From Rallus limicola (lineage: Eukaryota > Chordata > Aves > Gruiformes > Rallidae), in NCBI GenBank assembly GCA_022605955.1, contig JAKCOZ010000003.1, forward strand, positions 48,236,179 through 48,300,178: DNA of 64,000 nt. Reading direction: 5' to 3'. Of this stretch, positions 1,062-48,110 are shown one piece after another. The translations under genes were made by a program, and so were the position numbers. Position 1 is the stretch's first letter, and every line of letters begins with the position of its first letter. Below the pieces are notes generated by a model. That model had not been told where the DNA came from. It saw only the letters and a list, made by a program, of their open reading frames with translations, and did not search any database.

Positions 1062-1109
1062 AGAAGATGAGGAACTCTCTGCTCGCAGCTATCTTTTTAT
1101 TTGCAACAG
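1062..1109 (+). CDS. Receptor exon with start codon and signal peptide
   Basis: ATG at 1067 opens [14 protein letters not shown], a hydrophobic leader, and the exon ends at a gtgagt donor in phase 1. An acceptor immediately before the ATG marks 1062 as the exon border, so 1062-1066 is 5'UTR. Confidence 0.75.
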
Positions 1110-7100: not shown

Positions 7101-10100
7101 ACACAGTCCCTCTCTCAAGACATGTGCTAGTGTCCTGCATGACATTTATTTCTAAGATTTTTAGAAGGGTGTGTGCAGCCTCTTTTGGCCTATACTTTTG
7201 AAAACATCCATTAATTTGTATTTCGCATTCAAAACAACTTTCCAGGCAGAGCTGTTGCCAATTGCAGTTTATAATTGTGCAGGTGAACAGTGCGTCCCTC
7301 CCATGCAACACAGATGCTCCTGGTTCTCCAGGGTTCTCCAGCAACTCCCAGAGGGGAGTTCTAAATGTCTCTGTCCCTTGTTCTAAGTATCAGTGAACTA
7401 CTTGCCTTGAGACGAATCATGGTCTAAGGACTCACACAGCTGGTTCTCTCTATGTTGAACAGAAGGATCTAGCTTGTTGTGCATTTGGTTTTGTTTCTCA
7501 CAGTCACTTCACACCAGCTACTGGTAAACAGTTGCCTGTGATGGGTCTTTTCCAGTCCTTGTGTTCTCATCTTGCAGACTGGGACAATGAATTGGTGTGC
7601 TACAGAGAATTAAGTGAAGATCTAACCTGTACCTGGCTGCCAGTGCCCAGTGCTCCGAATATGAATGGTTATACCATGTTCTTAAAATGGTAAGTCTGAA
7701 AGTAATTGCAGAAAGCAGAAGTCATCAATGCTAGTCAGCATGATTCCTACCCATCAGAGTTTTGCTCTGAAGTATTTAATCACAATACTCGTCAAAATCT
7801 TTCTTCACATCTCATCAATACTCATTGATTTGGTAAGAGCTCAGTAAGAGTGTGGTGAGAGGCCAGGTACCCACCAAAGCTACCCTATCACTCCTGTCCT
7901 CAGCTGGACAGGGGAGAAAAAGATATAACAAAAGGGTCATGGGTCAAGATGAGAGATTGTTCACCAATTACCATCGTGGGCAAAACAGACTACACTTGGG
8001 GGAAAAAAAATTAACAAATTAACATAGAATAATGAGAAATAAACCCAAATCTTGAAACACCTCCCCCCCAACCTCTTCCTTCTTCATGAGCTTAACTTCA
8101 CTCAAAATTTCTTTACTTCCTCCCCTACAGTATTCCAGGGGGACAGAGAACAGGGGTTCAGTTCATCACACATGATGCAACCACAACCAAACCAGACACT
8201 AAATTCTTCTTATTATACTTTCTATATTATGTTATACCATGTGCCATATGTCAGATATGGCACAAAAGAAAAATTAATTTTAAAGTATTTTCATACAGCT
8301 CAGAATTATCAGGTATTGGTTTCATAGATGAAAAGAACTTGTAGGATCAATCATTAAACTGTTACTTTAAAATATGGGTATCTTCATTTGCACCATGTTT
8401 GTAAAAGCTGAAATAAAGAAGCAGGGTAAAACGTAGATAGACAGATTAAATCAACATCTGCCCATTGTTGAAAACAAAAAAACTTTTAAAGTCATCAGAT
8501 TTCTGTCTCGGTACCTGCATTGCAAAATGGATTTTCCTCATTTTATACCTACATATTTGGGGTTTCCCATGAGATAATGGGTATGTTTAGAGAGAAGTGA
8601 GACCAGAAAATAGGATCTTTGCCTTAAGACCATATCATAGGGTACACAGGATACGATGCTGTATGCCATTGGCAAATTCTGGTACTCATTGATGATTATT
8701 TTGCCACATAACCCACCACTCAGCATTAAAAAAGAGCTGTTGTTAGGAGCATCTCCTAAAGGAAATGTCACCACACTGGGAAATCCCCCAATGTGATGTT
8801 CTGCAGATAAGCAAAGCAACCACCTCAGAGCTGAGGTTACTCCCCCCATGACCTACAATATTTTCCCCCCTGAAGGCCTTGCAATAAACACCAAACCCAC
8901 TGCATTTGCTGTCTTGCCTCTTGGGTCTTCCAGGCACCCCAGCTTCTTGGAAGGCAAGAAGCACCTGTGATACAGCTCTGCTTCTGTAGAGATACTATCA
9001 GCTGAAGTATTTGTAAGCTAGTTACTCTTAGAGTCCTCAGTCAAAATCAGACAACCCTGCTGTTTCTAAGTGCAGGGTTGGTGTTATGAACAGAGAAAGC
9101 AGAAAAAGAAGAGTGAAGAGGTGGTGGGTGGAGCAGGATGGAGACAATTACCTCCTGGAAATGTTCATTTTCTCAAGCCAGACCCAGAACTTTCAGGCTT
9201 CCTGGGCTTCAGCCCAGCGGTCTTAAAGAAAAGCTTCCTTTCTCCTTTTTTTATTGAGCTAAAAGGAAAACAAAAATGTTTAAGAGAGCTTTTTGCTTGC
9301 CTAGAAGAGGACATCACCTGTTTTTACAAGAAACATCAGTTTGACATTGAAATTGTTCCTTCACCTGAATCCTTATGATTTAGTTGTCAGAAAGAAAAGG
9401 ATTAAAGAAAAACACTCCCACAGAGAAGTTCCAACCAAGGATCTGAAATCATGCTTTGAAATATTAATGAATGATTCACAACTAGTCTGAAGCAGAGGAC
9501 AGAGGAACTTCCAAGTGGTTTTGTTCAGTTATTAAATATTGTATCATGATCAGCACATTTAATACTTGAAATACGTAGGCAGGCAATTAGTATGCCAGCC
9601 CATTCCTTGAAGAACGTTGAATTGGAACAGCTTTAACCTTGAGAAAAATCCATCCTGTGTGTGGCAGAGAGTAAATGAGAGAGAGATGGGGGAAAAAAAC
9701 CCCAATAACCCAAACTAAACAGACCAAGAATAGTTTCCCATGTAAGGCCTTAAACATCTTGGGCTTTCTGTACTGTGTGAATTATGTGTACCACAGGAAG
9801 TCTGCAGGGCTGAGGATTGAGGTGGCATTAATACACCTCTGTCAAACACTGTTATATGCATATAACACAAGTTATATGCATGTCTTCTGATTTCTGTTAC
9901 TTCAAGAAGTTTTTCATACCTTTGTGGTAATTTAGTTTCAGCTAACTGGGAAGTTTTCCTGTTCAAAAAGAATTTAGGTGCCCCCATGGTAGGTGGCAAG
10001 TAGACTTTATGAAGTAATTTCTAACCTAAGTTTATAACTTCTAAATGCTCTTTATATCCTATTGTAAGTACTAAAGAAGGCCATATGGATTGTGTCTTGA

Positions 10101-13100
10101 TTCACACTGTATCTTACAAGTTTAAGGAATGTGACAGCTCCCCAAGCACACAACAAGGATTTGCATGTTTAAACTTGCATGCTTACCCTAAATTTACTAG
10201 GGTATTGGAATCCCAATTGCTGTTTCAAGCTGCACAGGCCTTGCCTTCAAGACTTCAATTGAATTTTGTCTGTAGGTACCTGGAAAACTATCAATTGCTG
10301 TATCACTGCTTTCTGGGGCAGGGGAAAACTACAACCCAATAAAATCTCTGGTTTTCATTCTGCTTCCTTTTCTCTGAAGGGACAGAATACCAAAGCTTCT
10401 TCAACGAAACACATCATCACCTTCCATCAAGATAGAACGAAGGGATCTCTACATGGAGCGATCTGCATCTATTTGGATAGCGGTGAATTACAATCAAGGC
10501 AGATGTGTGAAAGGAAAGACCATCTCAGTTATACCGAGCAAAGCAGGTACAGCATCCTCACGAGCTGTGTTACTACAGAGCCCAGCTGAAAAGCTGGTAG
10601 CATTTTCTTAAAGTTTATTTCCAAAACTGTGACTCCTGATATGCAGTTGTTATTTTTACTGATTCAGAGAGCTAAGCTGCACTTTGGTTTCCTTGGATAA
10701 AATCTATGCTGAAGTCAATATCAGAAATTTATCAGCTTTTACGGGATAAGGGTTTTACTTTAAATCATTTGCTAGACTATAAAATAGTCATATTCAGAAA
10801 AATATATAGTGATATTTGTGTACAGTACTTAACCAGCTTCCTGTGCTCTCTTTGATGGTTTTCTGAACTTCTTTATTGGTTTACAGAGAGCAGGTTGACT
10901 CAGTACCACTCACTTAAGGAATTCTTATTACAGAGCATTAGCGTTTTCAGAAACCTTTTCAATGTTGAACTCTTTTCAAAGGCCACTTACCCATTACACA
11001 ATGCTGCAGGGGAGTTATGAAAAAAATAAATCCTATTAACTGTGACATTTAGATGTTTATTTAAATATTCCCTACAATATCTGATAACTGAGATAACTAA
11101 AAGGGATTTCCAAAACTTCACCTTCTCAGAGTAACTGTGGTCCAAGAAAAAAAAAAACCAGCACTTCCCACTGCTCAGGGGCACTCCCAAATTATCACTA
11201 TGACCTCCTCTGAAGGTTTTCGGCCACCTTCTGTTTACTGTCAGGAAGGACAAAAACATATTTGGGCTTAAAATTATATAGCTAAACACAGTTGCTGAAA
11301 CTGGAAGACATTCTAGAAGTCTTTTTATACTCTTCACGATTATAGGTACTCTTGACATTTTGATTTTGCCTTTCAGACTCACTCAGAATAGCACCTGCTT
11401 AGAAAAAGGGCCTTGCTGAAATCAGGAGAAGCATTTACAAAAGAAAGGGGAGAAAAACAACCCTATTTTGTAGATACCAAAAAGATGTAGTAATAATTTA
11501 TTCCCAGGCTTTTAAAAATCTTTCAGTGTTAAGTGCCAAGCCTTTTATTTTTTTACAAACCACACCTGACAGACGTAATTACCAAAGCTTTCCTGCCTCT
11601 CTTGCATTTATAACAGCTGCATGTTCCCCATTTTAGGGAAGTGCTTGACACCATCTAACATAAATGCTTATCAGATCACAAACCAACTGATAATAAAGTG
11701 GGACCTGCCTGCAGCTCCTATACCACATGAGCTGAGATACAGAGAGGCACTCACAGAATCCACTCAGTGGTTGCTGGTAAGTACTTCCAGATGACAATCA
11801 CTTGAGAACATGAGGTGCCTTACTATCAACTCAGCAGTACGTAGCACGTACAGCAGGACATCGTACAGACAGGATGCTACCAAAGAGCACACACAACATG
11901 GATAGCAAGGATGCACAGCACGCAGACTTCTTGTAGTCAAATCTCACAAAGCTCTCTTAGTTTTGTTCTAACAGATGCTAAGCTGTTTGAGAAAGAAACA
12001 TTAATAGTCTTCTATAGAAAAAACCAGAATGTCACGTCATCTGGTTCATCAGCCTGTCAATGAGACACAACCACCATCTGCAATGGAAAAGGTGAAGAGG
12101 TTATCAGATATGCCGTACAAACTCAGATCCTGATTATGCTTTAAACAGTGCACAATGTTAGTCTTTTTGCTATTAGCACTGGGTTTTCAAACCGATTAGA
12201 AATCAGGTTACTGTGATTTTTCAGGTAAAAATTCATGCCTTACACGTTTGTTTTGCAACAGTTTTCCACCAGTTTTCCACATTTCCTTCTTTGACAAGAA
12301 GGGAAATAATTTCTCTGTGATTCAAGGTCAGTTCCAGATGCACTTTAGGACATGCAACAGCAAGAATAAGGTGCAGCAAAAGGGCACTGACAAAAACTGA
12401 AGGGACTAAGAAAGAGGTAGAAAAGCAGTCATAATTTCAGTACAATCTGCATGCAGCAGCCATGGCTGCTTATTCCGGCCATTGCCATCCAGCATATCAT
12501 GCAAAGGCTTCACCAGCAGTCATGCACAAATGCATGATTTGTGTCACTGAGTCCCTGAAATTGCTCCTGTGACCCCTCCCAACTCCTTGTGCACCCCTGG
12601 CCATCCTGCCAGCAGGCTGGTGCGAGAAGCAGGAGAGGCCTTGACCCAATTGGAGCATTGCTCAACAACAAAAGCTTCTCTCTGTAGCAAAACCCATCTT
12701 TTTACGAACACTCTTTTCAGCACAAATCCAAAACATAGCCCTGTACTAGCTGCAAAGAAGGAAAGTAATGCTACCTATCTCAGCTGAAATCAGGACAAAC
12801 TCCAAGAAGAAAGCTGTCTAAAAAATGAGCATCTCTGCTCTCCTAGGAGTCTCTTTGCTTCTTTTGCACCACCAAAACCTTCCATGTTCTCCCCTTTACA
12901 TCAGAACAGCTGTTCTCTCATAGCTGGCTGCCACTTTGTCAGCCACTTCGGAAGGAGTACAGTGAGAGGCCCACATAAGAAAGGTACAAAGAACGTGGAA
13001 GTTTTGGAAGGGTCCCCTTGCTCACTGACATATGTCCTAGACCATTCTAGGACAGCCAGACAGGAGCATACTATTCAACAGATAGATAACCATGTGCAGA

Positions 13101-19100: not shown

Positions 19101-22100
19101 CTAGGTAACAGCAACCACCACATCTGCTTATGGAGGCATGATTTCATTTATTAGTTATTTTTGGTTAGAGAGAGTATGATTTTCACGCTGGTTTTAAGCT
19201 CATACTGAAGATCCAGGTAAGCATAAGATCTTATTTTTTGTCCAGCATTAAGATATCATCTAATTTTTAGCAACACCAAGGTCAGATAAAAAGGAGAGTT
19301 TTCAGTAGGACTCTCCTGGTCACAGCTGGGCAAGAAATGCAGTTAAGTTGCTGTCACTGGTGTGATGTCTCTCATCGATCACATTCCAGGCAGACCTACA
19401 CACTACTGGCTTTAAAAAAAAATAATTTCTCCTGTCCCTATGTAAATTTAACTTTATATCTAAAGTGCCTTGTTACAGTCTCCCTTGGATTACTTTTTTT
19501 TATCCCAATGGCTGTCCTTGTCAATGTCTTAGTTCTCAACTCCAGTATTCCTTTTACCAAGCTAGGCATGATGAACCTTAGCTGGGAATCCCTTTATGGG
19601 TCAGCCATAAAAAGTATTGATTAAAATTGTGTAGGTGACGCTTGCAAAGGCCATTCAGGACTGGATTTTATGTACAGTAGAGAACATTTAGTTTCAGAGC
19701 TCCATAAACGAAAGCACTGTTTTCCTTGGTCCTTCCACCACATCTGCACTGCCACACTACATCCAGTTGTTTTGCTTGGCTTTCCATGTGCTAGCTGAGG
19801 GGGGAATAGCTGTCCTTAGCTGTCCTTGAACTAAGACATCTCAGTTGTTTCAGTTCCCTACTTCTTCAAGCCCTCCAGAGTGAGATTATAAGTAGATTTG
19901 GCATCTTTAAAAGCCAACCTGTGTTACATCTTGTTCTGCTTTTGAAATAGTTTGTATTAAGCATGTAAAGACAGAGAAGAAAGATGCACATATTTTGTAC
20001 TCTTTGTAAAAGCACTGTAAATTTTACTATGCTTTGAGTCTCAGAAAGCAACTATATAGAAAAGCTATAAACTCGTGTCTCCTCCACTACTTTATCACTG
20101 ATAACTTTTCAGTAGATCCTGATGTGCCTTTATTTGTTTTCCAGATGTTTTTCAGCCATATAAGTTGTACAAAATAATAGTGCATGCATCTGATGTGTGT
20201 CAGTGTGAAAATTTCACAAGATATGAAAAGACTTTTGGAGCGACCCACTTTTACTCAGTTGAAGGAGGTATTCCTCCCCCTTATACAACCTCATCACTTA
20301 CACTTCTTCTGCAGCAATAGAAAGAAATCCTACAAAGCTTCTTTGCCACATAACAGCATCCTCCAGTTAGCAACGCCTTTGGTCCTAGCAGTTACCCGCC
20401 AGAAGTAAATGTCCTGAATGTTGTTGCTTACCGATAGGTCCACAGGAATACTATTGTTACCCATGACATTACCAAAATAACAGAAAGAAAAGAAAGAAAG
20501 GGTAACTAAAGAGTTAGTTACTACTAATTCTAGCTCAAGCTTAACTGTGGCCAAAGTCATGTTTCCCAATCCAAATTTGATTGAGGGAAAGTTGGTAAGA
20601 AGTTTGTAATTTCTGCCTATATATTGCAAGTTGAAATTGGTGCAGCTGTGGCTATTGTAGTAAGAGTGTCTGTAGTGAGATAGTCACAATTTCTACCTTG
20701 GTATTGCTCAAGGTGAGGTGTTTTTATTCTATGGGATTTCTCCTTTCTCTTCTACGCTTTACATTATATTTATGACAACTAGAATCAGGCAAGAATAGTT
20801 TTAGGAAGCAGCTAGGTTTCAGTCTTGGTGTCTATTGCACAGGTTTCGATGCAGTAGTTTAATTATTATCCGATTTTTAAGTTCCTAGGACAGGTCCCAC
20901 CAACGTGACAATACTGAACATCAGAAAGCATTCTGCACTTGTGAAGTGGACTGAAATAGCTGCTGAAGACTGTCAGGGCTTTCTCCAGGGATACAGGATC
21001 AGCTACACAGACTCATCTAGGAAGAAGTCTGAGCGTAAGTCACTGTGGCTCAGGGCAATTCCGAAAACAGAGCCACAACTGAAAAGCTTTGTCCAGATCA
21101 TTAAGTGCTGTTGCAGCACACTAGCAAGTTACTCAGATTTCTGCAGGAACTGAGTGCTTTTAAAGATCAGCTTGTGGTTACTTTTAATGCTCTAGGTGGT
21201 CCTATGAATACTTAGGATTTTATTAATATTTAATTTAAGATTATATATATAAGAAAATACTTCTTTAAATCTAGTTTCTTTAAAAGGATTCTAAGACTAC
21301 AACAGGATTCTCTAGTAACACTGAAAGGAAGATGTATGCTTTCTGTATTTCTGAAGGTATTAAGATTTCAGTCACAATATTTTTATGTATCATTGCAATT
21401 TGACTCTGAGCCTTTCTACAGGAGGTTCTTTTTTGAACTCAATTAGCAAGGAATATAGTTTGGTTTTCTTAATTGTTTTCAAATACACTACTTTATTTTT
21501 AGAAACGTTTTCTTAAACTGATAATTTAGTGTGTGTAAGAACAAAGGATGAAACTTCTACACATTGAAGTAAATAGTTGTAAGCTCAAACCACTTGAGTT
21601 TTAAAAAAAAATCCTCATGCTTCATTCAATAAACTTTTTTTCTGGTCTGCAGTTGAAAGTCTTCTTGCCATAAAAAATATTAACTTTGTGCATACCGACT
21701 TTCAAATGAAGTTAAAGACATGCTATGGAAGCCAAATAGCACCTAAGACTACACAAAGGGGATAGCAAGGGTTCTATAATTCATGTCTTTACAGGGCCAC
21801 AAACAGTTACAAAAGCTTCAAGTACACAGTGTTAGCAGGAGGTTTGGCAACATCTTGGGGAAGCAGGGGGAGAAAGGGGATCTATGCAACCCCAAATAAC
21901 TACTGGAAAACACAGGAGGATACAGAAGGGGAGTGTCCAGGACTGAACCTATTTTTCCCCCTCTGCCCTAACCACTGCATACAATAGTGACACAACACCA
22001 GACTTCAGTGACACAACATTGCCATGTTTTCCAGGGAGGAAGAATAATTTTATTGCAGAATTTGGGGAAATGAACCCTATAGGCTGCAGCACCATTACCT

Positions 22101-25100
22101 CTTCTATGAAGAACCTAATGCACAGTGGCAAACTTGAAAATTAATTTCTGCCCTGTTAAAAGCATCACTGCTGGTGTTATTCTGGCAGGGGTAAAGTAAC
22201 TACACTGTCAGAAAAGAAAGGTTGTGCTGAAAGCCCCACAAAGCAATGAAGCAGAATGTATGGCCATTTTTGTGTCCAGAATAACATGTAGTGGCACTAA
22301 GGTGAATAACTACAGAGTACTGTAGTGAGTATAAAGCGTGTGAGAGGGCCCAGTCCCTACATAAGCTATTACAGCCAGCATGAAAACCACTGTTGAGTCT
22401 TCTGCAGTCACCACCTGTGTTAAATGCTCATGATTTTTACCTTGGGACTTAAAATATGCCTAAGTATTTGAGGGGTGGGGGTTGGCAGGGTGGGGGGGAG
22501 GGGGAGACCTTGTATCCATCCAAAGAATGCTGTGGCTTCCTCCAGGTCAGGATTAGGGCACAGAAATTTTGCCCTAGAGAAAGACAACCATCAGGGTTTG
22601 CCTAACAGTCTCCTTCACCAGCCCCTCTTGTGTTTCAGCTGTCACACTCAATTCTTCTACCACAAGTTACCATCTTACCGGGCTGAAGGAAAAAACCATC
22701 TACCGTGTGCAGATTTCAGGATTCACTAATGCTGGAGAAGGACCAGCGACTCTTTCACAACCCTTTAGCACTCTAAAATACGGTACTGGGGAAGCTCTAT
22801 TTGCCTGCTTTACACCAGTCCTTGCTTTATGCGCTACAAGTGGCATTATCCTCTACTCTTCCATGCTTTTCAAGCGCTCATGCACAAGATTTGCTATTCA
22901 GTCCTTAGTCACTGATGGCAAACATGATGGACAACACGATTTTTTCTTTGTTAAACTATGCGTCGCAGAACAATTCTGCCTGTAATTTCATTACCTAACA
23001 TGCTGGGAAGACTTAGCTAAGATTCCTCATCTCTGAAATGCTTTCTGACCTTTTTATGCTAGCTGTATGTATTTATCTTTATTGTTGATTCCTGTCTCAA
23101 CAATCTAAATATCCTGCTTGTGAACCAGTTAAATTTGGTAGTCCTGCTCTTGGCTAAATCCTGAGCAACCAAGTAAAACTGGTTTGCAATTACATCTCTA
23201 GGCCATTAACTGTAACAAAAAAAGTCTCTTTCAATTGCTCCTATTGTGAGTGACAGCTAATCAAAGTACCTTTTTTTTTTCTAATAATTTAAATACATTT
23301 TATACAACAGGTCCTATAGTTTGCTGGTAAAAGCTTGCTCTTTTCAAAGGTGTCTGGATAGCATTATGAAGATCAATGCATTTATAAAGTCTCATACATT
23401 GTATCCATATAGGGTTGGCTAAACATGGACTCTTAAACATTTTTAACACCTTATCAGTTAAGCTAAATCTAACATTGCAGTAGACACTTTTGTTTGTTTG
23501 TTTGACTGCAGCTTCACTCAATTTAATCTTTCTAAAGGAGAAAAAAAAAAGAAAACAGGCTGAGATGGTATCAGCCACAGGAAAAGTAACTTGTGAAATT
23601 CAGAGACAGGAGTATGCAAATATGTTCTCCCCACTACAGCTTTTTTATATTAAGTGAAAGAGGTTAAAAAAAACCCAAAACCAATCCCAACTGAACAGTC
23701 AAAAGTGTAAAGCAGAAAGAAGAAGGAAAGAAATTAAAATTCTGCCTTGAAATCAAAAGAGTTTCTCCCCCTTCCTCCCCGCACTGACATTCTTTCTCCT
23801 GTCAACATAAGAAATTAAAGTTTTCTGCAGGACTTAATCCATGCATCCCACTGATGTGTATTTGGATAGGATTCATTTTTTCATTAAAAATAACAAAAAT
23901 GCAATGTTAATTTAATGCAACATTAAAAAAATTCAAGTAATCATACTGAATTTAAATGTTACATTTAGCATTTCCCCCTCCCCCCCTCTTCATCCCATCA
24001 TTTCACAGGTTACTTAATCCATTGGAATAACCTCAGGTTTCTTTATCATTAAAGCTTTTTTCAGCAACAAAACAATTTGCAGCTTTTACAAATACCTTTT
24101 AAAACAAAATCAAATAACTGATTTTTAAAAAGAAATTTTTGTTGGTGGGTGCATAGAAAAACACAAGCTGCTTTTTACAAATACCATTTGTCAGTATCAG
24201 CAACACTATCATGTACTGACCACACTTTCCTGGTGCTATTTTGAAACTTTTGATTTAGCTATCTGTAAAGAACACCTCAACCCCAACCTGCTATTCACAT
24301 CACAGACTGCTTTGGTTCCTGTGTTAGCAGCACTAATGTCACTGCCTGAGCACTTCTTCAACCTTCATTAACCTTTCAAGCACTTGATCTTCAGGGAGGT
24401 GGGGTGATGGTGACAAGAGTCTTGAGCAGGTAATAATATAAGCAATAGGAGATGTAGGCTCACAGCAAGGGCTGACAGACAGCTGCCTGCAGATAAAATT
24501 ACCTAATGATCCTGACAGGTGGAGAACAGCAACTACCAAATACAGAAACCATATATTATTATCAGGATCAGGTAGGATCTCCACTCCCCACCCTCCAAAA
24601 AAAAAAAAACCAAACCACCAAACACAAACACAAACTAAATCCTTCTAGTAAAACGTGATCAGATCAAAAGCCACTTTCAGTCAGTTTTTTATGATGTCAG
24701 GGCCTTCATCAAGGTCCTGACCTATTAAACAAGCTAGACCTCCTATAATAACACAGAGAATAGGAATACTTTGCCAATTATAAAATGTTTCTTTGGATGC
24801 TGGACATCAGAATCCAGCACATGTATCTATATATCTTTAAAATCCAAACTGGAAGGCCTCTGACACTATCACACACTCCCCCCTCCTACCACCCCTCCGA
24901 AATGCCAGGTCTTGTTTTAACTAGATTTCACATGAAATATCAGAACATGTATAAAGTTTGACTTCTGTTTGAAATATTTCTCTTGCTGAGGCAATATGGC
25001 CTTTCTGTATTTCATACCGTAAGTCTGATTTAATCTCTCTGTTTCCCATCAGATCAAGGAGAATTTGAAGGTTTTGTGACTGTTCTTTGCCTCAGCATGC

Positions 25101-28100
25101 TGTTGGTTCTGGTGTTTGCACCTCTCACTTGCTCTCTGGTGCTCAAAAGGTAAGTAAGGAATATTGGCTGAAGCTTTTAGCAGCACTTTTGATTTGCTTA
25201 ACCTCAACTTTCATGGCACTGGGGCTTTTTCTTCATTAAGAGCAACACAACTCAAAAAGCAGTACAAAAGCCACCCCACTCATTTACACAGTGAGAGGAA
25301 TTACAAACCACTGCAAGCTGATTAATACAGTTCATCAAAAGTCTTTAACCTTTTGCTTTTGACACACTTATCTGACTAACTCCTGTCTCAAGCACCCTTG
25401 AAAGGAGATAGCAAGGACCATTTTTGACAGTGGAAAATAGGTTCTATATATGGAAAAAGCATGCATTTGGATATTTTTCTCTATCATTTCTAACTGATAA
25501 TCACATCTCTTCTGTTGAAATGCAAAAATAAATTTGAGCAGCATATAAAAATTGATGTTGCCATCTAAGCAATTTCCTGCAAGCACATTTGGATGTTAGC
25601 TGCATAAATTATGCACATAATGAGAAGGCATAATGGATGGATGAGTAGAAAGAAGAGAGAATAACAAGGGTGCCTGTAAGATATAGATGAGGTCCTCTTA
25701 TTTTAAGAGAAACTGTTCCCTGCAGTAATACACTCTCCTCAAACTACCCTGAGGTACAGTATCAGGAGTATACACTTCCACAAAAAAAAAAAAAGGATTG
25801 CAAATGTGTCTTAATACTCATTTTTTCTGCTAAAACTAGTTGCATACTACCATTCATACTACTATTTTGATGTCCTATAACACCTCCTTCCCTTTTTCTC
25901 CTCTTTACAAACACTCGCCTCAGAAGCTGAAAGAAGAGCTGCTAAAGGACAGAACAGACTGACCATACTGCCCGTGGCTTGAAAGCCATACAGGGTGACA
26001 TAGTTCACTTTAGCTTATACGTCAGGCTTAGCTCCTGCCCTTGCCACTGGGAAAAAAAAAAGACCATGCTCCACACGATGTCTCCTGTGCACTTTCCTTT
26101 TCAGATTTTACTTTAAGTTGCTCTTTATCTGATAGAGCCTTTTTACCAAGTACTTCAGAGACTTACTCAGAACTTCTGACCTAGAGCAAACGTCACTATG
26201 TTAAACCATCATCCTTCATTGTCTAGGCCCATTAGGAAAACTAAAAAAAAGACCCCAAAACAACCCAAACCAAAACAAGACAATACACAGAGGCCTGGTG
26301 TAGCACTACAAAATAGCAATTAAATATGTAGTAGCATTGAACACCTGGAACTTAGACAAGGCATTCGAAAGATCACCTCATCTCAATTACCTGCTTGATA
26401 TGTAAAAAAGGACTCACCAGCCAAACCATCTTCATAGGATCAGCAAGGAGGTACAGTAATTTAACAGCCTCCAGCTTCACCTCAAAACACAGCCTAAACA
26501 GATGCAAAGTACCTTACAGCTAAGGAAGTCTAGATTTGATTTGAAAACAAGACAGCACAGAAGTCAACACTAAGGCAGGGTGATGGGCTGCATAACCTCC
26601 TACAGTCTCTCACATCTATGTTGAGGTTTTTTCCTATGAAGGTGACTCATTGCCCAGAGCTCACAGGGGGGTGCTCTGAGAACAGTTAATGTCAGGGAGG
26701 TGGTCAGCTCAAAAACTCTGAGATGTTCTCCCTCAGCACCCACAGAAGACAGTGATGAACACTCAGGGGTGATAAATCCAGTCAGCTCAGCAGAAACTCC
26801 TTTGGAAATTCCTATCCACCCCACTGCTGCCCCTCCTCAAGGAAATCACAGCAGAACCCCAGCCAGCCTGGGGCCAGCACCAGCATCCTTCTCAGGAAAA
26901 AACAGGAGGATAATGACTGAGGTGGTGCCCATGTCAGGAGGGGCCCAAGGAAGCTGCAAAGCACAGCAGCTTGTTGCCACTTGTGTTGGTTTTGAGCACC
27001 CAGGTGCAAGGAAGGAGCTTGAAAAGGTGGCTCGGATGAGATAAGTAGATGGCTGAAACCCATCGGTACAGCTTGACTGGCAAACTCAGCTCTACCTTAC
27101 AAACCCTGTCCCCTAAGGCAGAAGCAGCTGATGTGAGTTTTTAGTAAAGTGTGTTTCTGTTCTGTTAGGTGAAACAGTGAGGTATTGTGTATCACGGAAC
27201 CAAACTCAGAACAGTCAGAAAAGAACCGAGCTGTGATGTGCCCCCTGTTCTGGACTGTGGGTACCAGGGATGTGCTGTCATTGCACAGAAGCTCAAAACA
27301 GCAATGGCTTACTCTTCATTGAGGGAAAGCAAGCTTCTCATTAGAAGTCCCAAAGCAAATACTTTCTAAAACAAACTTCCTCCTTTGTGTCCAGGAATCC
27401 TCAGGAAGATGGCGGTTTTGTGGAAATGATAGTGAATTAGGAATACACACTGGTTGAAAATAGGGAGAGAACATTTCCAGCTACTGTCACAGTTCCTTTG
27501 TCCTTTTACAAAGATGCTAATCACTAACACAGCATTTCAGTGTACCAAGACTGGTGTGCAGTTTTTAATTGGCATGGTGCTTAACAGGCATTTTATAACA
27601 TCTCGTTTTGATGATCTTGAAAATATCAACAAAATGTTGTGTATAAATGGTAGATAATTTAATGCATACAAAATGTCAATTATTTAACCTGACAATGATT
27701 CTTTACAGACTGAAAATATCATGCTGGCCCAGTGTACCAAGTCCAAGAAACAGCAGTGCCCTCCAAGATATGGCAAGTACTCTTCTGATGGTGTGAAAAA
27801 CACAAGGGAGATCATAGAATCATAGAATAGTTGGGTTGGAAGAGACTTCAAGATAAGGATACCTGGCTTTCAGGACTGAAGTGCCTGGAAATCATCTGTT
27901 ACAATGAGGTTGCTGGAGAACATATTACTCACTTTCGCCCATTATTGTATTGATTTGCTTTTCCCTCTCCTTACCTCTTCTGCTTTTAAACTAGTTTCTG
28001 GTCAAGTTTTGCTGACACCTGATACTAGAAGTTCTTCCTCTAGGACACCTCAGTTTATCTCCCAAACCTCAAACTGCCATCCATTATGTTTTTTGGAGCC

Positions 28101-31100
28101 AGGAACTTACTCTACTTTCCTTTTTAAATATCACTGATTTTTCTGGCAGACCTGAACTGTATTTGGCAGTCCTAAATCTAGTTTTTCAAGCCAACTTGTC
28201 AGCTTTAACAAAGCAGGCTTCTATCTATTTAGTCAAAAATCAGGCAGAAGCTGGAAAGTGTCAACAAGCTGGACACTGTCCAAACCTAAGGGCATGGAGT
28301 GAAATAATCAGCAACAAAATTTCAGAAGACCCTGACAGGCTGCTGGTAATCAAAGGTTTGGCTGGATGTCAGCACTGCTTCCTTCAACAGAGCAAGTATG
28401 AACTTTCATATCCCAGATGGAACATGGACTTCCTTGCTTACTTTCTTCCACTTAAACGTAGATAAAGAAGTGATGAGCTCAGTGTCAGACTGTCATATTG
28501 CTGAAGTCAGATAATGCCAGATAAAGTAGGATCAGATGTACAAAGGTACAGCTGGACAAAGCCGGAGTTTCTAAAGTGATGCTGCTCAAGATTGCAGTTT
28601 CACTGCTCTGTTCTTTTAAGGACTTGATCTCCTTATGAGCACCAGGCAACTTCCAGTTCTCAGTGTTTGGACTCAGACGTCCCTCACTGACCACTCCAGT
28701 AAAAATAACTCCATCTCATTCCCTTGCTACTTCTCCATCACACATTTAGAAAGTGGGAGATCTGCAGATTCAGCCTTGTTTGAAGTCAGGCTTCTCAAAG
28801 GCAAAAAAGCAATCTAGTATATTCAGCGTTTGGGGGATTTCTGCCTTAAAGAAAGTGCAAGACCTGAAGGAAGTCCATGTAATTATGAGCTTAGGTAGAG
28901 TTCAATTGCAGGATAGAAGTTTCATCAAGAAAGGAGTAAGAAGTAACAGCCAAAATAACCTGATAGGTCCAAAGATTAATTTTCCATCATAAAGAAGTGC
29001 AGGTGAAATACAGTGAGACTCTACGCTATAAAAAGGCCAAAAAGCTTTTATGAACCATAATGTCACTTCGACATACATATATCTAAAAGCAAACTATACC
29101 AACTTAAAATCCATTTAACTGTGCCTGCAGAGACCAAGCAACTAAAGGGAAACAAAATCTGTGTTAACCAAGTCAGATAGAGAAATACTGTAATGTTGAT
29201 AACATGGAAGAAACAGAAAAAACATGTTGTATAAGGGTTTTGAGGAGATCAGAAAAAGCCCTGTGTGAGGCAGCCCTGTGTGAGTTACCACATAGAATGC
29301 CTAGAAGCAATTTGATGTTATGAATAGTTCATGAAATTTGAAGTATCCCCCAAATGAGCACTATGAAATGGAGCAAAGGAGTAAATCTTACTATATTCCA
29401 TCTATTTATTCTATTTGTGGGTTGTTTCAAGACTAATCATCATATTAGTTGAACAATGTAGAAACTCTTGACAGAAAACACATTTATAGTCCAGATAGGT
29501 GGCGAAAGAATTTGTCCTTCAAATCAGGCAGAGCACTTTTTTTTGTGAAGAAGGCCATGATACCCCCATGGTCCAGAGCAGCAGGAGAAAATGGAGACAC
29601 TCTCAATTCAGTCATCACAGAAAGGCCAGAAAAATGAATGATGGAGACTAACATGATAAGCCAGCCACCTGGCTGTCCTATTCACACACATCTAGTGTCC
29701 TATTCTTCACATTTATACAGGATTCTTCAAAGGTGTTGCTTCATCTTCACCTATCACTGCCTCTTTCAGGCACGTAGAGCTTATTTTGTATAAATGCAGA
29801 GACACACACACACACACACATACAGCTTATTTTAGATTTAGCACAATAATATTGCTGTTCACAATAAATAGAATAATGGAGCTCCATATCACACAGGCCT
29901 TAATGCAAAGCAAGGCAAAAGCTGGACATGCAGAGGTATCTACTCATCTACTACTTTCCACAAGAGAAAAAGAGAGATACTTTATGTGGGATTGCTGAGA
30001 TTTCAAAGAACAGCATAATCCTTCCCAAGTCAGAACAGAAATTGTAAGAAGAAAGTAATAACCAATAATTACATACATATTTATTTTTTTCAAAGAACCA
30101 TAACAGTTCAAACAAATTTAAAGCAACTGAGGGGAAAAAACAACAAAGGGGAAAAAAAGCTAGTAGTTCAACCAGAGAACATACCAGCCTGGCCATAATT
30201 TAAAAAAATTACACCAAAGTGGGCAGACTCAGCAAAACAATCTGAGTAAAAGAGAAGGATGCTTGGTGTTACAGACTCTTCTCCACTCACTTCACCAGGA
30301 TTTGCAAAGTCTTGTATCCCAAGGTATTCTTAGATAACAACATGGCATGACAGGTAACAGCTACTTGCAGTGGCTGATAGCTAAAGCTTGCTTGGCTGCT
30401 GCTTAATTCAAGCTGCTGCTTTTTTATAGCAACAAGTTTGTTTTAAACTCTTTGAAAGATGTGGGTCTTAGAACGGCACATTGTGAAGCCTACATTTTAT
30501 CACCATGGCATTTTGTCCCAGGTGCACATAAAGACAAGAAAAACTTCACTTAAGTGCTGTGGGAGAGGAGAATATGGTCCTCTGAATTAGGGAAACAACT
30601 ACTTTCATTCATGTTTCTAAAACCAACAAATGTGAGATAGAATGGATGAGTGAGCAAGTTATATAGGCAGGATCAGGCAGCCTGTCTCCTAGCTTTATTT
30701 ATTTATTTATTTCAGTAAATTGCCAATTGTGTTTTGCAAAAGTATGATACTGAAATTATCCTTCCTCTTTGTTTTGTCTTGCAGACTGATTGGAAACCTG
30801 TGTCAAGGTCACTGCTTCAGGCCTTGTCAGACAATGATACCACTAGCCTTTATGTCATAGAGCATGAGTCAAAGGCTCCTTTGAATCTAGAGCTCTTTAC
30901 CGACAGTAGAGAAGACAGCAAGTGTGACACTCGCCAAGCAGAAGCAGCCAGCAGTAACATAGACATAACCCTAAGGCATGAAGTAATCCCTGAAGAAACA
31001 GTTACAAGCGGAGAAGAAGGAATCATTTCCATTACAGTACCACTCCTGAGTGACTACACCAGCGTGGAGTTTAGCCAGAAAGCCCTGATGAGTCTGACAG

Positions 31101-31270
31101 TGAAGCTGCCTGCCAGAGCTGCTCATCCTCATCTAGAAATGGAACTAAGCAGTAAGCCAGCACAAACTGAGCATCAAGTTTTGTTTGCTCCCCAAGACTA
31201 CCTCAAACAAAGCCAGGTAGTATTTTTGCCTTCTGGACCAACTTTGACAGGACAAGTAAATTTGAACTGA
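1067..31270 (+). CDS. Class I cytokine receptor, IL12RB1-like (complete, 15 coding exons)
   Basis: Coding exons are 1067-1109, 1306-1356, 7578-7689, 10380-10546, 11637-11776, 14230-14371, 14528-14610, 17145-17355, 18946-19104, 20145-20267, 20894-21034, 22639-22782, 25053-25149, 27709-27772 and 30785-31270. Together they give 2163 nt in one open frame (720 aa). Phases match at every junction and every intron is GT-AG except the last (GC-AG). Predicted order: signal peptide (1-14), cytokine-receptor D1 with the CYRE...CTW cysteine pattern (about 35-124), D2 ending in WSKEI (210-214), three FNIII domains (about 219-506), a transmembrane helix (about 513-536), box 1 with W544 and three prolines, and a 161-aa terminal exon with YLKQ at 698-701. 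The FNIII 3-5 region, the box 1 region ([13 protein letters not shown]) and overall size resemble IL-12 receptor beta 1, which pairs with IL12RB2 or IL23R at the cell surface and binds TYK2. The orthologue/paralogue question is open, so no symbol is given. IL27RA and IL31RA share the architecture but fit less well by eye. Confidence 0.85.
1306..1356 (+). CDS. Receptor exon 2 (mature N-terminus, 51 nt)
   Basis: A symmetrical phase 1-1 micro-exon between acceptor cactccccag and donor gtgcgt. It encodes a short cysteine-rich segment ([17 protein letters not shown]) with one NxT glycosylation site. IL12RB1 has a cysteine-bearing N-terminal segment in the same place. Because the exon is symmetrical, skipping it would keep the frame. 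Confidence 0.65.
1395..1680. repeat. G+C- and CpG-rich block with degenerate CCCGCTGCC-type repeats
   Basis: About 285 bp in receptor intron 2 is strikingly G+C- and CpG-rich against an A+T-rich background. Its right part is an imperfect tandem of units such as ctgcccgctccc and ctgccggctcc. Open frames across it are compositional and not supported as genes. It could be a small CpG island or alternative promoter, or a simple-repeat expansion. Confidence 0.6.
1850..2814 (+). mobile_element. CR1 LINE, 5'-truncated, sense to receptor
   Basis: Translation shows CR1 reverse-transcriptase signatures: [15 protein letters not shown], then FADDTKL, then the [19 protein letters not shown] block. The frame breaks near 2338, with homology continuing in other frames ([18 protein letters not shown], about 2470-2520). 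The copy ends in the CR1 3' tail, a gggtcccttccaaccc block and two attctatg octamers. It lies in receptor intron 2 and is dead. Confidence 0.9.
2815..3203 (+). mobile_element. Second CR1 3' fragment directly abutting the first
   Basis: It starts inside the element (ctgagtgagctggggctgtt) right where the preceding copy's octamers end. It runs through the CR1 3' end (aggtcctttccaagccct, then attctgtgatt). Confidence 0.85.
3271..3318 (+). mobile_element. CR1 3' tail remnant
   Basis: Only the last ~48 bp of a CR1 are present: a ggggtcccttccaaccc block followed by attctatggttctatggttctatg octamer repeats. Confidence 0.7.
3319..5352. other. Receptor intron 2, no feature seen
   Basis: A+T-rich noncoding DNA with a short A-run near 3711-3723. 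No exon, RNA gene or recognised repeat was found. Confidence 0.5.
5353..5750 (-). mobile_element. CR1 fragment, antisense
   Basis: Minus-strand translation gives [21 protein letters not shown] and [19 protein letters not shown], the CR1 RT C-terminal region. The left border has the reverse-complement 3' end (gaccattaagatcatgaagtccaac). It is joined at about 5750 to an oppositely oriented CR1. Confidence 0.9.
5751..6180 (+). mobile_element. CR1 fragment, sense
   Basis: Plus-strand frame encodes [31 protein letters not shown] and [20 protein letters not shown]. It lacks the 3' tail and breaks into an antisense CR1 near 6180. Confidence 0.9.
6181..6780 (-). mobile_element. CR1 fragment from the 5' part of the RT domain, antisense
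   Basis: Minus-strand translation shows the upstream RT segment ([20 protein letters not shown], then [15 protein letters not shown]). Homology continues noncoding to about 6780. With its two neighbours it makes a minus/plus/minus mosaic. Confidence 0.85.
7578..7689 (+). CDS. Receptor exon 3 (first half of D1)
   Basis: Acceptor ctcatcttgcag, donor gtaagt. The exon encodes [20 protein letters not shown], the first conserved disulfide pair plus Trp of class I cytokine receptors. Confidence 0.9.
7690..10379. other. Receptor intron 3, no feature seen
   Basis: Noncoding A+T-rich sequence. Short open frames here (for example 8052-8327, 8538-8849 minus and 9070-9378) have no family motif or splice context. 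Confidence 0.5.
10380..10546 (+). CDS. Receptor exon 4 (second half of D1)
   Basis: It joins in phase 2 with exon 3 to read [18 protein letters not shown], then [20 protein letters not shown], and ends at gtacag. The other open frame across this exon (from 10266) does not fit the junctions. One NxS site is present. Confidence 0.8.
11637..11776 (+). CDS. Receptor exon 5 (first half of D2)
   Basis: Acceptor ccccattttag, donor gtaagt. It encodes [20 protein letters not shown] and [14 protein letters not shown], the usual KW...P...Y/F.R pattern of a cytokine-receptor D2. Confidence 0.9.
11777..14229. other. Receptor intron 5, no feature seen
   Basis: Noncoding. The open frames at 12884-13210 and at 13349-13666 (minus) show no recognisable motif, no repeat-family similarity by eye and no splice logic. 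Confidence 0.45.
14230..14371 (+). CDS. Receptor exon 6 (second half of D2, degenerate WSxWS)
   Basis: It encodes [16 protein letters not shown], then [20 protein letters not shown], then KEIMVPH. The WSxWS position (14344-14358) reads WSKEI: the first Trp-Ser is kept and the second is lost. Donor gtaagt, phase 1. Confidence 0.9.
14528..14610 (+). CDS. Receptor exon 7 (start of FNIII domain 3)
   Basis: Only 156 bp downstream of exon 6. It encodes [20 protein letters not shown] and SVLLKWE, ending at gtaatg in phase 0. Confidence 0.85.
14611..17144. other. Receptor intron 7, no feature seen
   Basis: A+T-rich noncoding DNA with no recognised repeat. Short open frames (15025-15252; 15264-15509 minus; 15786-16001 minus) carry no motif. 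Confidence 0.45.
17145..17355 (+). CDS. Receptor exon 8 (rest of FNIII domain 3)
   Basis: Acceptor cctcttactag, donor gtactt. It encodes [15 protein letters not shown] and [20 protein letters not shown], a standard FNIII F/G strand ending (Y.V.ISAYN.AGES). Confidence 0.9.
17356..18945. other. Receptor intron 8, no feature seen
   Basis: Noncoding sequence without a recognised repeat or exon. Confidence 0.45.
18946..19104 (+). CDS. Receptor exon 9 (first half of FNIII domain 4)
   Basis: Acceptor tttgttcacag, donor gtaaca. It encodes [20 protein letters not shown] and [13 protein letters not shown]. The VVDW segment corresponds to the C-E-W stretch typical of gp130-family and IL12RB FNIII domains. 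Confidence 0.9.
20145..20267 (+). CDS. Receptor exon 10 (second half of FNIII domain 4)
   Basis: Acceptor ttgttttccag, donor gtattc. It encodes [20 protein letters not shown] and [12 protein letters not shown]. The Y-I-V-A-S and THFYSVEG pattern resembles the same place in IL12RB1. Confidence 0.85.
20894..21034 (+). CDS. Receptor exon 11 (first half of FNIII domain 5)
   Basis: Acceptor tcctaggacag, donor gtaagt. The nearby AG at 20887-20888 would break the frame. The exon encodes [20 protein letters not shown] and [16 protein letters not shown], an FNIII A-C strand segment with the W and Y..RY pattern. Confidence 0.9.
21035..22638. other. Receptor intron 11, no feature seen
   Basis: Noncoding. 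A short G-rich stretch lies at about 22470-22507. Confidence 0.45.
22639..22782 (+). CDS. Receptor exon 12 (second half of FNIII domain 5)
   Basis: Acceptor cttgtgtttcag, donor gtactg. It encodes [19 protein letters not shown] and [20 protein letters not shown], the membrane-proximal FNIII end. Confidence 0.9.
22783..25052. other. Receptor intron 12, no feature seen
   Basis: Noncoding, with several homopolymer A/T runs. The frame reads on from exon 12 to about 22985 but becomes unlike the family after the donor. Confidence 0.45.
25053..25149 (+). CDS. Receptor exon 13 (transmembrane helix)
   Basis: Acceptor gtttcccatcag, donor gtaagt. It encodes DQGEFEGF followed by a hydrophobic run ([19 protein letters not shown]...) and a basic LKR stop-transfer end. 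Confidence 0.95.
25150..27708. other. Receptor intron 13, unclassified
   Basis: Noncoding. The G+C-richer stretch at about 26580-27060 carries a 114-codon open frame (26700-27044) with no recognised domain. It differs in composition from its surroundings and might be an old repeat fragment that I cannot name. Confidence 0.4.
27709..27772 (+). CDS. Receptor exon 14 (box 1), GC splice donor
   Basis: Acceptor gattctttacag. It encodes [19 protein letters not shown] then DM. The Trp plus P-x-x-P-x-P spacing is box 1, the JAK-docking motif, and resembles the CPPLPTP region of IL12RB1. It ends at ATATG followed by gcaagt. Only this GC donor gives the phase 0 that the last exon needs; using the GT four bases later places an in-frame TGA straight after the junction. 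Confidence 0.8.
27812..27860 (-). mobile_element. CR1 3' tail remnant, antisense
   Basis: The segment atcatagaatcatagaatag then ttgggttggaagagacttcaaga is the reverse complement of a CR1 3' end. It begins about 40 bp after the box 1 exon. Confidence 0.8.
27861..30784. other. Receptor intron 14, no gene seen
   Basis: Noncoding. A (CA)n microsatellite lies at about 29803-29822. The open frames at 28163-28465, 28753-28992 and elsewhere have no recognisable motif. Confidence 0.45.
29803..29822. repeat. (CA)n microsatellite
   Basis: About nine uninterrupted CA units following gaga. Confidence 0.9.
30785..31270 (+). CDS. Receptor last exon (cytoplasmic tail)
   Basis: Acceptor tttgtcttgcag; 161 codons then TGA (31268-31270). 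It begins [18 protein letters not shown] and contains three tyrosines. Y698 sits in QDYLKQSQ, a YxxQ motif of the type that recruits STAT3. The tail is longer than that of human IL12RB1 as I recall it, which lacks such a motif. Confidence 0.9.
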   Translation, partial: TDWKPVSRSLLQALSDNDTTSLYVIEHESKAPLNLELFTDSREDSKCDTRQAEAASSNIDITLRHEVIPEETVTSGEEGIISITVPLLSDYTSVEFSQKALMSLTVKLPARAAHPHLEMELSSKPAQTEHQVLFAPQDYLKQSQVVFLPSGPTLTGQVNLN

Positions 31271-39100: not shown

Positions 39101-39164
39101 CTACCCGAATTCATCATTCATATTACACAAGGTCACACCTTCGCAATACAAAAAGGAATACCCA
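36111..39164. other. Intergenic; small CpG-richer patch
   Basis: Mostly A+T-rich and featureless. At about 38385-38530 there is a modest CpG-rich patch. A (G)TTTG-rich simple stretch lies at about 37670-37740. No gene is supported. Confidence 0.45.
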
Positions 39165-47957: not shown

Positions 47958-48110
47958 TTAAACATCTTCCATTTTAATCGAGAGGTTTTCTTCATTAGGT
48001 TGACAGTTCCCATTCTGCTGTAGTTTGACTTCATCTGTCCTTTGTGCTTCTCTGTTGTCTACTTCCTTGTCAGTTTCTGAATTCTGATCCTCTTTAGTGT
48101 GATCTTTGTC
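47958..48110 (-). CDS. SREK1: SREK1 last coding exon
   Basis: 51 codons including TAA (plus-strand tta at 47958-47960). It starts DKDHTKEDQNSETDKEVDNR and ends NGNCQPNEENLSIKMEDV, the conserved vertebrate C-terminus with small changes. Confidence 0.95.
   Translation of the reverse strand, partial: DKDHTKEDQNSETDKEVDNREAQRTDEVKLQQNGNCQPNEENLSIKMEDV

Follow-up and report, generated by a model that had tools for sequence, protein, structure and literature searches.

A probable Ig-less receptor chain of the gp130 family encoded beside SREK1 in Rallus limicola

A cytokine receptor gene lies beside SREK1 in the genome of the bird Rallus limicola (GCA_022605955.1, contig JAKCOZ010000003.1), presumably on the MAST4-facing side. 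We are reasonably confident, from its sequence, that this gene is complete and that its product, probably functional, is a gp130-family chain without an Ig domain (class I cytokine receptors, group 2), that this chain is probably a separate one from IL31RA, IL27RA and IL12RB2, and that IL12RB1 is its likeliest, albeit unproven, nearest relative. The gene structure, the order of the domains, the transmembrane helix, box 1 and the tail motifs can be read directly from the DNA. Counted against this interpretation are the closer raw similarity to gp130, a degenerate WSXWS motif, and a third exon placed by profile similarity alone.

The window, i.e., the whole stretch of 64,000 nucleotides analyzed here, contains the receptor gene on the plus strand at 1067-31270; the reading frame opens with the ATG at 1067 and closes with a TGA whose last base is 31270. 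We modeled it with 14 coding exons and a 713-residue product. All introns (13/13) are GT-AG, the phases agree at every junction, and the frame runs through the 713 codons of the 14 exons without stop or frameshift. The features are the following.

1067..1109, + strand: exon 1, start codon, then a short signal peptide; open frame; donor GTGAGT; ends in phase 1
7578..7689, + strand: exon 2, first half of D1; GT-AG; phase 1 to 2; class I receptor Cys pair with CxW
10380..10546, + strand: exon 3, second half of D1; phase 2 to 1; chosen by reference profile
11637..11776, + strand: exon 4, first half of D2; GT-AG; phase 1 to 0
14230..14371, + strand: exon 5, second half of D2, degenerate WSXWS (VCVWS); phase 0 to 1
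14528..14610, + strand: exon 6, first half of FNIII-1; phase 1 to 0
17145..17355, + strand: exon 7, second half of FNIII-1; phase 0 to 1
18946..19104, + strand: exon 8, first half of FNIII-2; phase 1 to 1
20145..20267, + strand: exon 9, second half of FNIII-2; phase 1 to 1; weak donor
20882..21034, + strand: exon 10, first half of FNIII-3; phase 1 to 1; weak acceptor; weak tblastn matches to OSMR (E 0.021) and IL31RA (E 0.60)
22639..22782, + strand: exon 11, second half of FNIII-3; phase 1 to 1; weak donor; tblastn match to gp130 (2.8e-4)
25053..25149, + strand: exon 12, juxtamembrane QGEFEG and transmembrane helix; hydropathy maximum 2.5; phase 1 to 2
27709..27790, + strand: exon 13, box 1; phase 2 to 0; preferably ending at 27790, possibly at 27776
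30785..31270, + strand: exon 14, cytoplasmic tail with box-2-like stretch and YLKQ, stop TGA; 161 codons open
47961..62773, - strand: SREK1 exons, from tblastn of human SREK1 (residues 135-624), the 5'-most reaching 62773 and the 3'-most 47961

The predicted product begins with a signal peptide, followed by D1-D2, three FNIII domains, a transmembrane helix and then box 1 (CWPSVPSP); its tail bears box-2-like, YxxV and YxxQ motifs. A sequence-only reading of this DNA had described a complete receptor beside SREK1, and the intact open frame, the 14 in-phase exons and the GT-AG introns bear this out, as does the location in our model of every part that it had named (D1-D2, three FNIII domains, transmembrane helix, Cys/Pro box 1). 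Its count of fifteen exons and 720 codons is not reproduced by the model given above. The difference may lie at the end of exon 13: ending it at 27790 uses a weak donor (GTGTGA, score 1.8) but reaches exon 14 in phase without an extra exon, whereas an end at 27776 has a donor score below 0 and calls for an additional mini-exon, perhaps the fifteenth of that count. Splice scores are also below 0 for the donors of exons 9 and 11 and the acceptor of exon 10. The signal peptide is short, and the true start could be in an exon further upstream. An Rfam scan of the window at the gathering threshold gave 0 matches.

The choice of exon 3 deserves separate treatment. Among 39 phase-compatible candidates, 10380-10546 scored highest against the reference D1-D2 profile (30.6 bits), and part of this lead reflects selection, since it was picked as the best of the 39. 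Its coding score is negative (-4.1 bits, versus -6.7 for the rejected candidate at 8131-8312) and its splice scores (5.8/0.8) are no better than those of the latter (6.5/0.9). Compared with single references, its peptide exceeds shuffled sequences in 2 cases out of 10, CSF3R (p 0.018) and mouse gp130 (p 0.017). Homology to the reference profile is, judging from these scores, its sole advantage. The candidate at 8131-8312 was rejected despite perfect phases: with it the profile score is 17.3 bits, versus 17.4 without any exon there, and neither of its two open frames beats shuffles, whichever of the 10 references is used (for human IL12RB1, p 0.52 in one frame and 0.19 in the other; minimum over all references 0.128). 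Reading it in another frame was also abandoned. A match in D1 to IL12RB1 only was seen with this exon and disappeared upon its replacement, which also weakened the PDB match to IL12RB1 from 7.2e-8 to 1.3e-6. In the model with the rejected exon, residues common to a single reference gave no signal (21 for IL12RB1, 21 for gp130, 19 for IL31RA).

The assignment to the family is supported by several lines of evidence. Pfam identifies fn3 in three stretches of the protein (E 3.4e-23). In a PDB sequence search, gp130 aligns to residues 12-580 with an E-value of 1.1e-29, which excludes a chance similarity; the alignment begins in D1, passes box 1 and extends into the box-2-like stretch. The first Cys pair of D1, with CxW, is present in exon 2 (C22 and C32-x-W), and a putative second pair would be made of single cysteines, one from exon 3 and the other from the beginning of exon 4. 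A canonical WSXWS is absent from D2, its site reading VCVWS, which is half conserved. As in the gp130 family (group 2), there are three membrane-proximal FNIII domains and a transmembrane helix followed by the Pro motif of box 1. The layout had been taken as that of IL12RB1; the domain order is indeed present, but it is unspecific, being common to the Ig-less chains IL31RA (GLMR) and IL27RA, as stated in an excerpt of Liongue and Ward (PMC1963337). The same excerpt holds that IL12RB1, IL27RA and GLMR occur in tetrapods only and probably go back to a single ancestral receptor.

In phylogenetic trees, IL12RB1 is the sister of the receptor in all six alignment and trimming settings (UFB 78-88, SH-aLRT 89-94), with the uniting branch below the starred support level in every one. 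Six AU tests on one alignment, uncorrected, lean against IL31RA (p 0.027), OSMR (0.036), IL27RA (0.012) and IL12RB2 (0.0036) as partners and do not reject gp130 or CSF3R (p 0.11). The clustering with IL31RA or IL27RA that would have spoken against the sequence-only reading is absent from the six trees. For IL31RA, the p-value is 0.0266 with the corrected protein, compared with 0.198 with the rejected exon 3 and two fewer references. The join to IL12RB1 persists when IL27RA, the longest tip, is removed (88/95). Without IL12RB1 the receptor moves to gp130, unsupported (50/8), and without the receptor IL12RB1 joins IL31RA (81/85). The tree program, in a run with the rejected exon 3, flagged meeting long branches. 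The receptor stands at 3.8 changes per site from human IL12RB1, compared with 0.75 between human and mouse IL12RB1 and about 2.5 between gp130 and CSF3R; scaling the human-mouse value by the divergence times would give very roughly 2.7 for bird and mammal orthologues.

In BLAST searches within an 11-sequence set, the receptor is the top partner of human (64.3 bits) and mouse (47.0 bits) IL12RB1, each other aside, followed by IL31RA (45.4 and 43.1 bits, respectively). Starting from the receptor, IL12RB1 ranks after gp130, IL31RA, OSMR and CSF3R. Shuffle z-scores for the whole receptor are 19-23 for gp130, 17-18 for IL31RA, OSMR and CSF3R, and 12-14 for IL12RB1, and mouse IL12RB1 scores higher with IL31RA (12.4) than with the receptor (11.7). 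For the transmembrane helix and box 1 they are 11.5-11.8 for gp130, 7.9 for IL31RA, 7.5 for OSMR and 2.6-3.5 for IL12RB1; for the tail, 6.2 for CSF3R, 4.4 for IL31RA (box 1 only), 4.1 for gp130 and 0.9 for IL12RB1. By these scores, the transmembrane/box 1 region is gp130-like and the tail CSF3R/gp130-like, unlike those of IL12RB1. The proposed kinship with IL12RB1 is only partly supported: the sister position recurs in the six trees at weak support, gp130 and CSF3R are not rejected, and the membrane and tail regions point away from it.

The receptor shares with IL12RB1 the Ig-less D1-D2, three FNIII domains and transmembrane helix, the CYR...C.W at the start of D1 and the C-x-G-x-L-x-x-Y of the last FNIII domain. 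It differs by an identity of only about 21.5%, a gp130-like juxtamembrane QGE.E, a box 1 with Trp, and a longer tail with three tyrosines, among them YTSV (YxxV) and YLKQ (YxxQ), a pair found together in 1.9% of shuffled tails; the human IL12RB1 tail, we assume, is devoid of tyrosines, STAT-docking ones included. It also adjoins SREK1, not MAST3 as IL12RB1 does. With gp130 (IL6ST), its best match, it shares the juxtamembrane and transmembrane region, box 1, the box-2 stretch and YxxV plus YxxQ, but it lacks the N-terminal Ig domain and has a shorter tail with one YxxQ. Its box 1 (WPSVPxPxxSS) and box-2 stretch resemble those of CSF3R, which has an Ig domain that is absent here. With IL31RA it shares the Ig-less layout and CWPxVPxP.

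The receptor and SREK1 are convergent (tail-to-tail). RRM_1 of SREK1 is found on 61430-61609, and the 5' end of this gene is outside the window. Since the window begins 1066 bases upstream of exon 1 of the receptor, MAST4 would fall outside it. In human 19p13.11, IL12RB1 (minus strand) and MAST3 (plus) are head-to-head, and in 5q12 SREK1 and MAST4 are both on the plus strand; human 1p, 5q, 9p and 19p form a cytokine-receptor paralogon. By this order, the flank of SREK1 that carries the receptor would be the one toward MAST4, which fits an ohnologue of IL12RB1. No such receptor is known beside SREK1 in mammals. Chicken IL31RA, in a further likeness, is on Z together with IL6ST, according to excerpts of PMC3108232 and PMC4964923. 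An excerpt of PMC9222667 names il31ra and il6st side by side next to DDX4 in three fishes and says that birds keep the genes adjacent to DDX4; the gene beside SREK1 is therefore probably not the IL31RA locus. Among the matches listed in the open-licence PMC literature, there was no account of a receptor beside SREK1/MAST4, nor of the location of chicken IL12RB1.

Possibly, the receptor is an ohnologue of IL12RB1. Under a 2R origin, which we regard as a serious contender though short of probable, the receptor before duplication was a head-to-head neighbor of a MAST gene. Of the resulting copies, mammals would have retained the one at MAST3 (IL12RB1) but not the one at MAST4, and birds would have retained the one at MAST4, with or without the other. 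The location past the 3' end of SREK1, with the receptor oriented away from where human gene order would put MAST4, the sister relation in the six trees and a distance exceeding the rough orthologue estimate agree with such an origin, but UFB support is under 90 and rate differences could yield an equal distance. It is also quite conceivable, if doubtful, that the gene arose by duplication on the gp130/CSF3R/IL31RA side of the family and then diverged, without special tie to IL12RB1; the tree join would then be long-branch attraction. The best match to gp130, the membrane and tail scores, the AU values for gp130 and CSF3R, the preference of mouse IL12RB1 for IL31RA and the long-branch warning all fit, yet IL27RA stays apart despite its length, the join survives its removal, and IL12RB1 favors the receptor over gp130 by BLAST.

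It is rather unlikely that the gene is nothing more than the IL12RB1 orthologue of birds, relocated or carrying that name in databases, with no second gene. Such an orthologue would agree with the tree, with the annotation of chicken IL12RB1 (ENSGALG00000027301, in an excerpt of PMC4898705) and with the much greater scarcity of IL-12R beta 1 than of IL-12R beta 2 homologues in Aves reported in PMC12162339. However, it would have the large distance noted above and, unlike mammalian IL12RB1, STAT-type tail tyrosines, and a chance move to exactly the SREK1/MAST4 paralogous site would be improbable. A recently dead gene, for example on the W chromosome, is very improbable given the 713 open codons in 14 exons, even if SREK1 has a W copy in flycatcher (excerpt of PMC4468903) and the shortness of the signal peptide, the weak splice sites at several exons, the degenerate WSXWS and the uncertain exon 3 could be read that way.

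If the receptor is a working chain, as we favor, and expressed, as we infer, its D1-D2 elbow would contact a four-helix cytokine, putatively of the IL-6/IL-12 group, and the three FNIII domains would set the spacing to a presumed partner chain. A kinase, probably of the JAK family, would be held by box 1 and box 2, and with YTSV (SHP2/SOCS3 type) and YLKQ (STAT3 type) in its tail the chain could signal by itself, presumably through STATs, in contrast with human IL12RB1 and its presumably tyrosine-free tail. The full proposal is on the unlikely side: a self-signaling ohnologue of IL12RB1 with a YxxQ motif, which birds would have retained next to SREK1/MAST4 ever since the genome duplications of early vertebrates and mammals would have lost, and which would serve as an undescribed receptor for a cytokine of the IL-12/IL-6 group. 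If the gene is a retained ohnologue, birds would own a chain of the gp130/IL-12-receptor family that is missing in mammals, the wiring of avian IL-12/IL-23 could not be deduced from mammals, the label IL12RB1 may cover two different genes among bird genomes, and a gap in the cytokine-receptor paralogon would be filled. A fourth Ig-less chain would also bear on the origin of IL12RB1, IL27RA and GLMR (cf. the excerpt of PMC1963337).

The gene beside SREK1 is a real and intact receptor gene of the gp130 (IL6ST) family. It occupies 1067-31270 on the + strand and its 14 exons encode 713 residues, with 13 of 13 introns GT-AG and in phase. The sequence-only reading had recognized an intact multi-exon receptor, but with 15 exons and 720 codons. 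The parts of the gene and the other features of the window needed here are as follows.

Exon 1, + strand: short N-terminal signal peptide of the receptor
Exons 2-3, + strand: D1, cytokine-binding domain
Exons 4-5, + strand: D2, cytokine-binding domain
Exons 6-7, + strand: FNIII-1 (D3)
Exons 8-9, + strand: FNIII-2 (D4)
Exons 10-11, + strand: FNIII-3 (D5)
Exon 12, + strand: transmembrane segment (TM)
Exon 13, + strand: box 1
Exon 14, + strand: cytoplasmic tail, in a single exon
1827-2336, + strand: RVT_1 reverse-transcriptase fragment within the first intron of the receptor
39058-39954, + strand: RVT_1 reverse-transcriptase fragment between the receptor and SREK1

We take both RVT_1 fragments to be CR1-like, which suggests a bird or another sauropsid as the source. 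The first intron also contains, near exon 1 (1521-1665), short GC-rich tandem repeats with periods of 7-30. A phase-1 intron is found at all domain boundaries of the receptor (exon 1/2, D1/D2, D2/D3, D3/D4, D4/D5, and D5/TM), and Pfam identifies three fn3 stretches in the protein. In the PDB sequence set, residues 12-580 match the gp130 chain 8qy5, presumably of mouse (E 1.1e-29), and residues 78-479 match human IL12RB1 (E 1.3e-6). The gene may well be present already in existing predictions, labelled IL12RB1 or IL31RA.

The choice of exon 3 affects the apparent affinities of D1. For the gap between exons 2 and 4, we scored the 39 phase-compatible stretches against a profile built from the D1-D2 region of the references, and 10380-10546 was the best (30.6 bits, runner-up 24.0), a lead that owes something to choosing the top one among 39. 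The same profile gave 17.3 bits with the alternative at 8131-8312 and 17.4 when exon 3 was omitted. On the + strand, this alternative joins exons 2 and 4 in phase, its acceptor is good, and two of its three frames are open over 60 codons. It was rejected because neither open frame outscores shuffled peptides for a single one of the 10 references (human IL12RB1: p 0.52 and 0.19). The splice scores of 10380-10546 are no better than those of 8131-8312, and the coding score is negative for both (-4.1 and -6.7, respectively). Among the 10 references, the peptide of 10380-10546 beats its shuffles only for CSF3R (p 0.018) and mouse gp130 (p 0.017), is borderline for human gp130 (p 0.053), and is no better than shuffles for the other seven, including IL12RB1 (p 0.42 and 0.26). 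With this exon in place of 8131-8312, an apparent IL12RB1-specific match in D1 disappears.

Checking of the 10 reference receptor sequences covered IL12RB1, IL31RA, and IL27RA: the human and mouse IL12RB1 ectodomains and residues 1-201 of IL31RA are identical to PDB chains, and IL27RA matched over its length. Six trees, one for each pairing of three ways of aligning with two ways of filtering columns, all place IL12RB1 as sister of the receptor (UFB 78-88, SH-aLRT 89-94), in line with the kinship proposed by the sequence-only reading, but the starred support level was never reached. Clustering with IL31RA or IL27RA, which that reading had named as evidence against its proposal, occurs in none of the six trees. 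In AU tests on one alignment (six tests, nominal p), forcing the receptor with IL31RA (p 0.027), OSMR (0.036), IL27RA (0.012), or IL12RB2 (0.0036) was disfavoured, whereas gp130 (p 0.113) and CSF3R (p 0.111) remained acceptable sisters. The join with IL12RB1 is kept when IL27RA, the longest tip, is removed (88/95). Removing IL12RB1 leaves the receptor beside gp130 without support (50/8), and removing the receptor leaves IL12RB1 beside IL31RA (81/85).

Pairwise similarity is asymmetric. With the human and mouse IL12RB1 left out of each other's rankings, BLAST pairs each of them most strongly with the receptor, human at 64.3 bits (IL31RA 45.4) and mouse at 47.0 bits (IL31RA 43.1), while the receptor itself ranks gp130 (119 mouse, 108 human) over IL31RA (86.7), OSMR (80.1), CSF3R (70.5), and IL12RB1 (64.3). 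Over the whole length, human IL12RB1 is closer to the receptor than to IL31RA (z 14.6 and 12.8), and mouse IL12RB1 shows the reverse (11.7 and 12.4). Such asymmetry is expected under fast evolution of mammalian IL12RB1, and also under long-branch attraction in the join. Around the membrane, the juxtamembrane QGEFEG, transmembrane exon, and box 1 are nearest to gp130 (z 11.5-11.8), followed by IL31RA (7.9), OSMR (7.5), and CSF3R (5.0), and are unlike IL12RB1 (2.6-3.5). The tail scores highest with CSF3R (z 6.2), then IL31RA (4.4, box 1 only), gp130 (4.1), and IL27RA (2.4), and reaches only 0.9 with IL12RB1. On balance, we lean slightly towards placing the receptor in the IL12RB1 lineage.

The tail has three tyrosines, at 575 (YVIE), 643 (YTSV), and 691 (YLKQ) of the 713-residue model. 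In gp130, a passage of Liongue and Ward (PMC1963337) assigns YxxQ to STAT3 and YxxV to SHP-2/SOCS3. Both motifs occur together in 1.9% of shuffled receptor tails, so we regard the pair as no more than suggestive.

SREK1 lies on the minus strand, where human residues 135-624 map from 62773 down to 47961, tail-to-tail with the receptor across about 17 kb. Its exon at 52035-52592 (minus strand) encodes long Lys/Glu/Asp/Arg repeats with abundant tandem periods of 6-48 bases and is perhaps length-variable; between SREK1 exons, 54871-55536 (minus strand) is open for 222 codons with no Pfam match. In human, IL12RB1 and MAST3 are head-to-head in 19p13.11, and MAST4 and SREK1 follow in succession in 5q12. 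We would therefore expect MAST4 past the 3' end of SREK1, to the left of the window. The receptor is located past this same end and directed away from the expected MAST4 side, which is the arrangement of IL12RB1 and MAST3. In the first tree, a path of 3.8 changes per site separates the receptor from human IL12RB1, compared with 0.75 between human and mouse IL12RB1 and about 2.5 between gp130 and CSF3R. At the human-mouse rate, and given the split times of these lineages, a bird-mammal orthologue should be near 2.7, so the difference favours a split older than that of birds and mammals, although rates vary widely.

The chicken Z carries IL31RA and IL6ST, according to passages of PMC3108232 and PMC4964923, and excerpts of PMC9222667 name il31ra and il6st beside DDX4 in three fishes, stating for birds only that DDX4-adjacent genes are conserved. 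Given these reports, the gene beside SREK1 is probably distinct from the IL31RA locus. According to a passage of PMC4468903, the flycatcher W carries a further copy of SREK1, and the window may thus be on Z or W. The annotated chicken IL12RB1 is ENSGALG00000027301 in an excerpt of PMC4898705; no genomic location for it turned up among the open-licence PMC papers listed by our searches. Excerpts of a 405-species survey (PMC12162339) describe bird homologues of IL-12R beta 2 as far more abundant than those of IL-12R beta 1, and these excerpts make no mention of the receptor gene beside SREK1. An IL12RB1 ohnologue, a paralogue kept from vertebrate genome duplication, is compatible with both the position and the trees, and is a plausible identity for this receptor.
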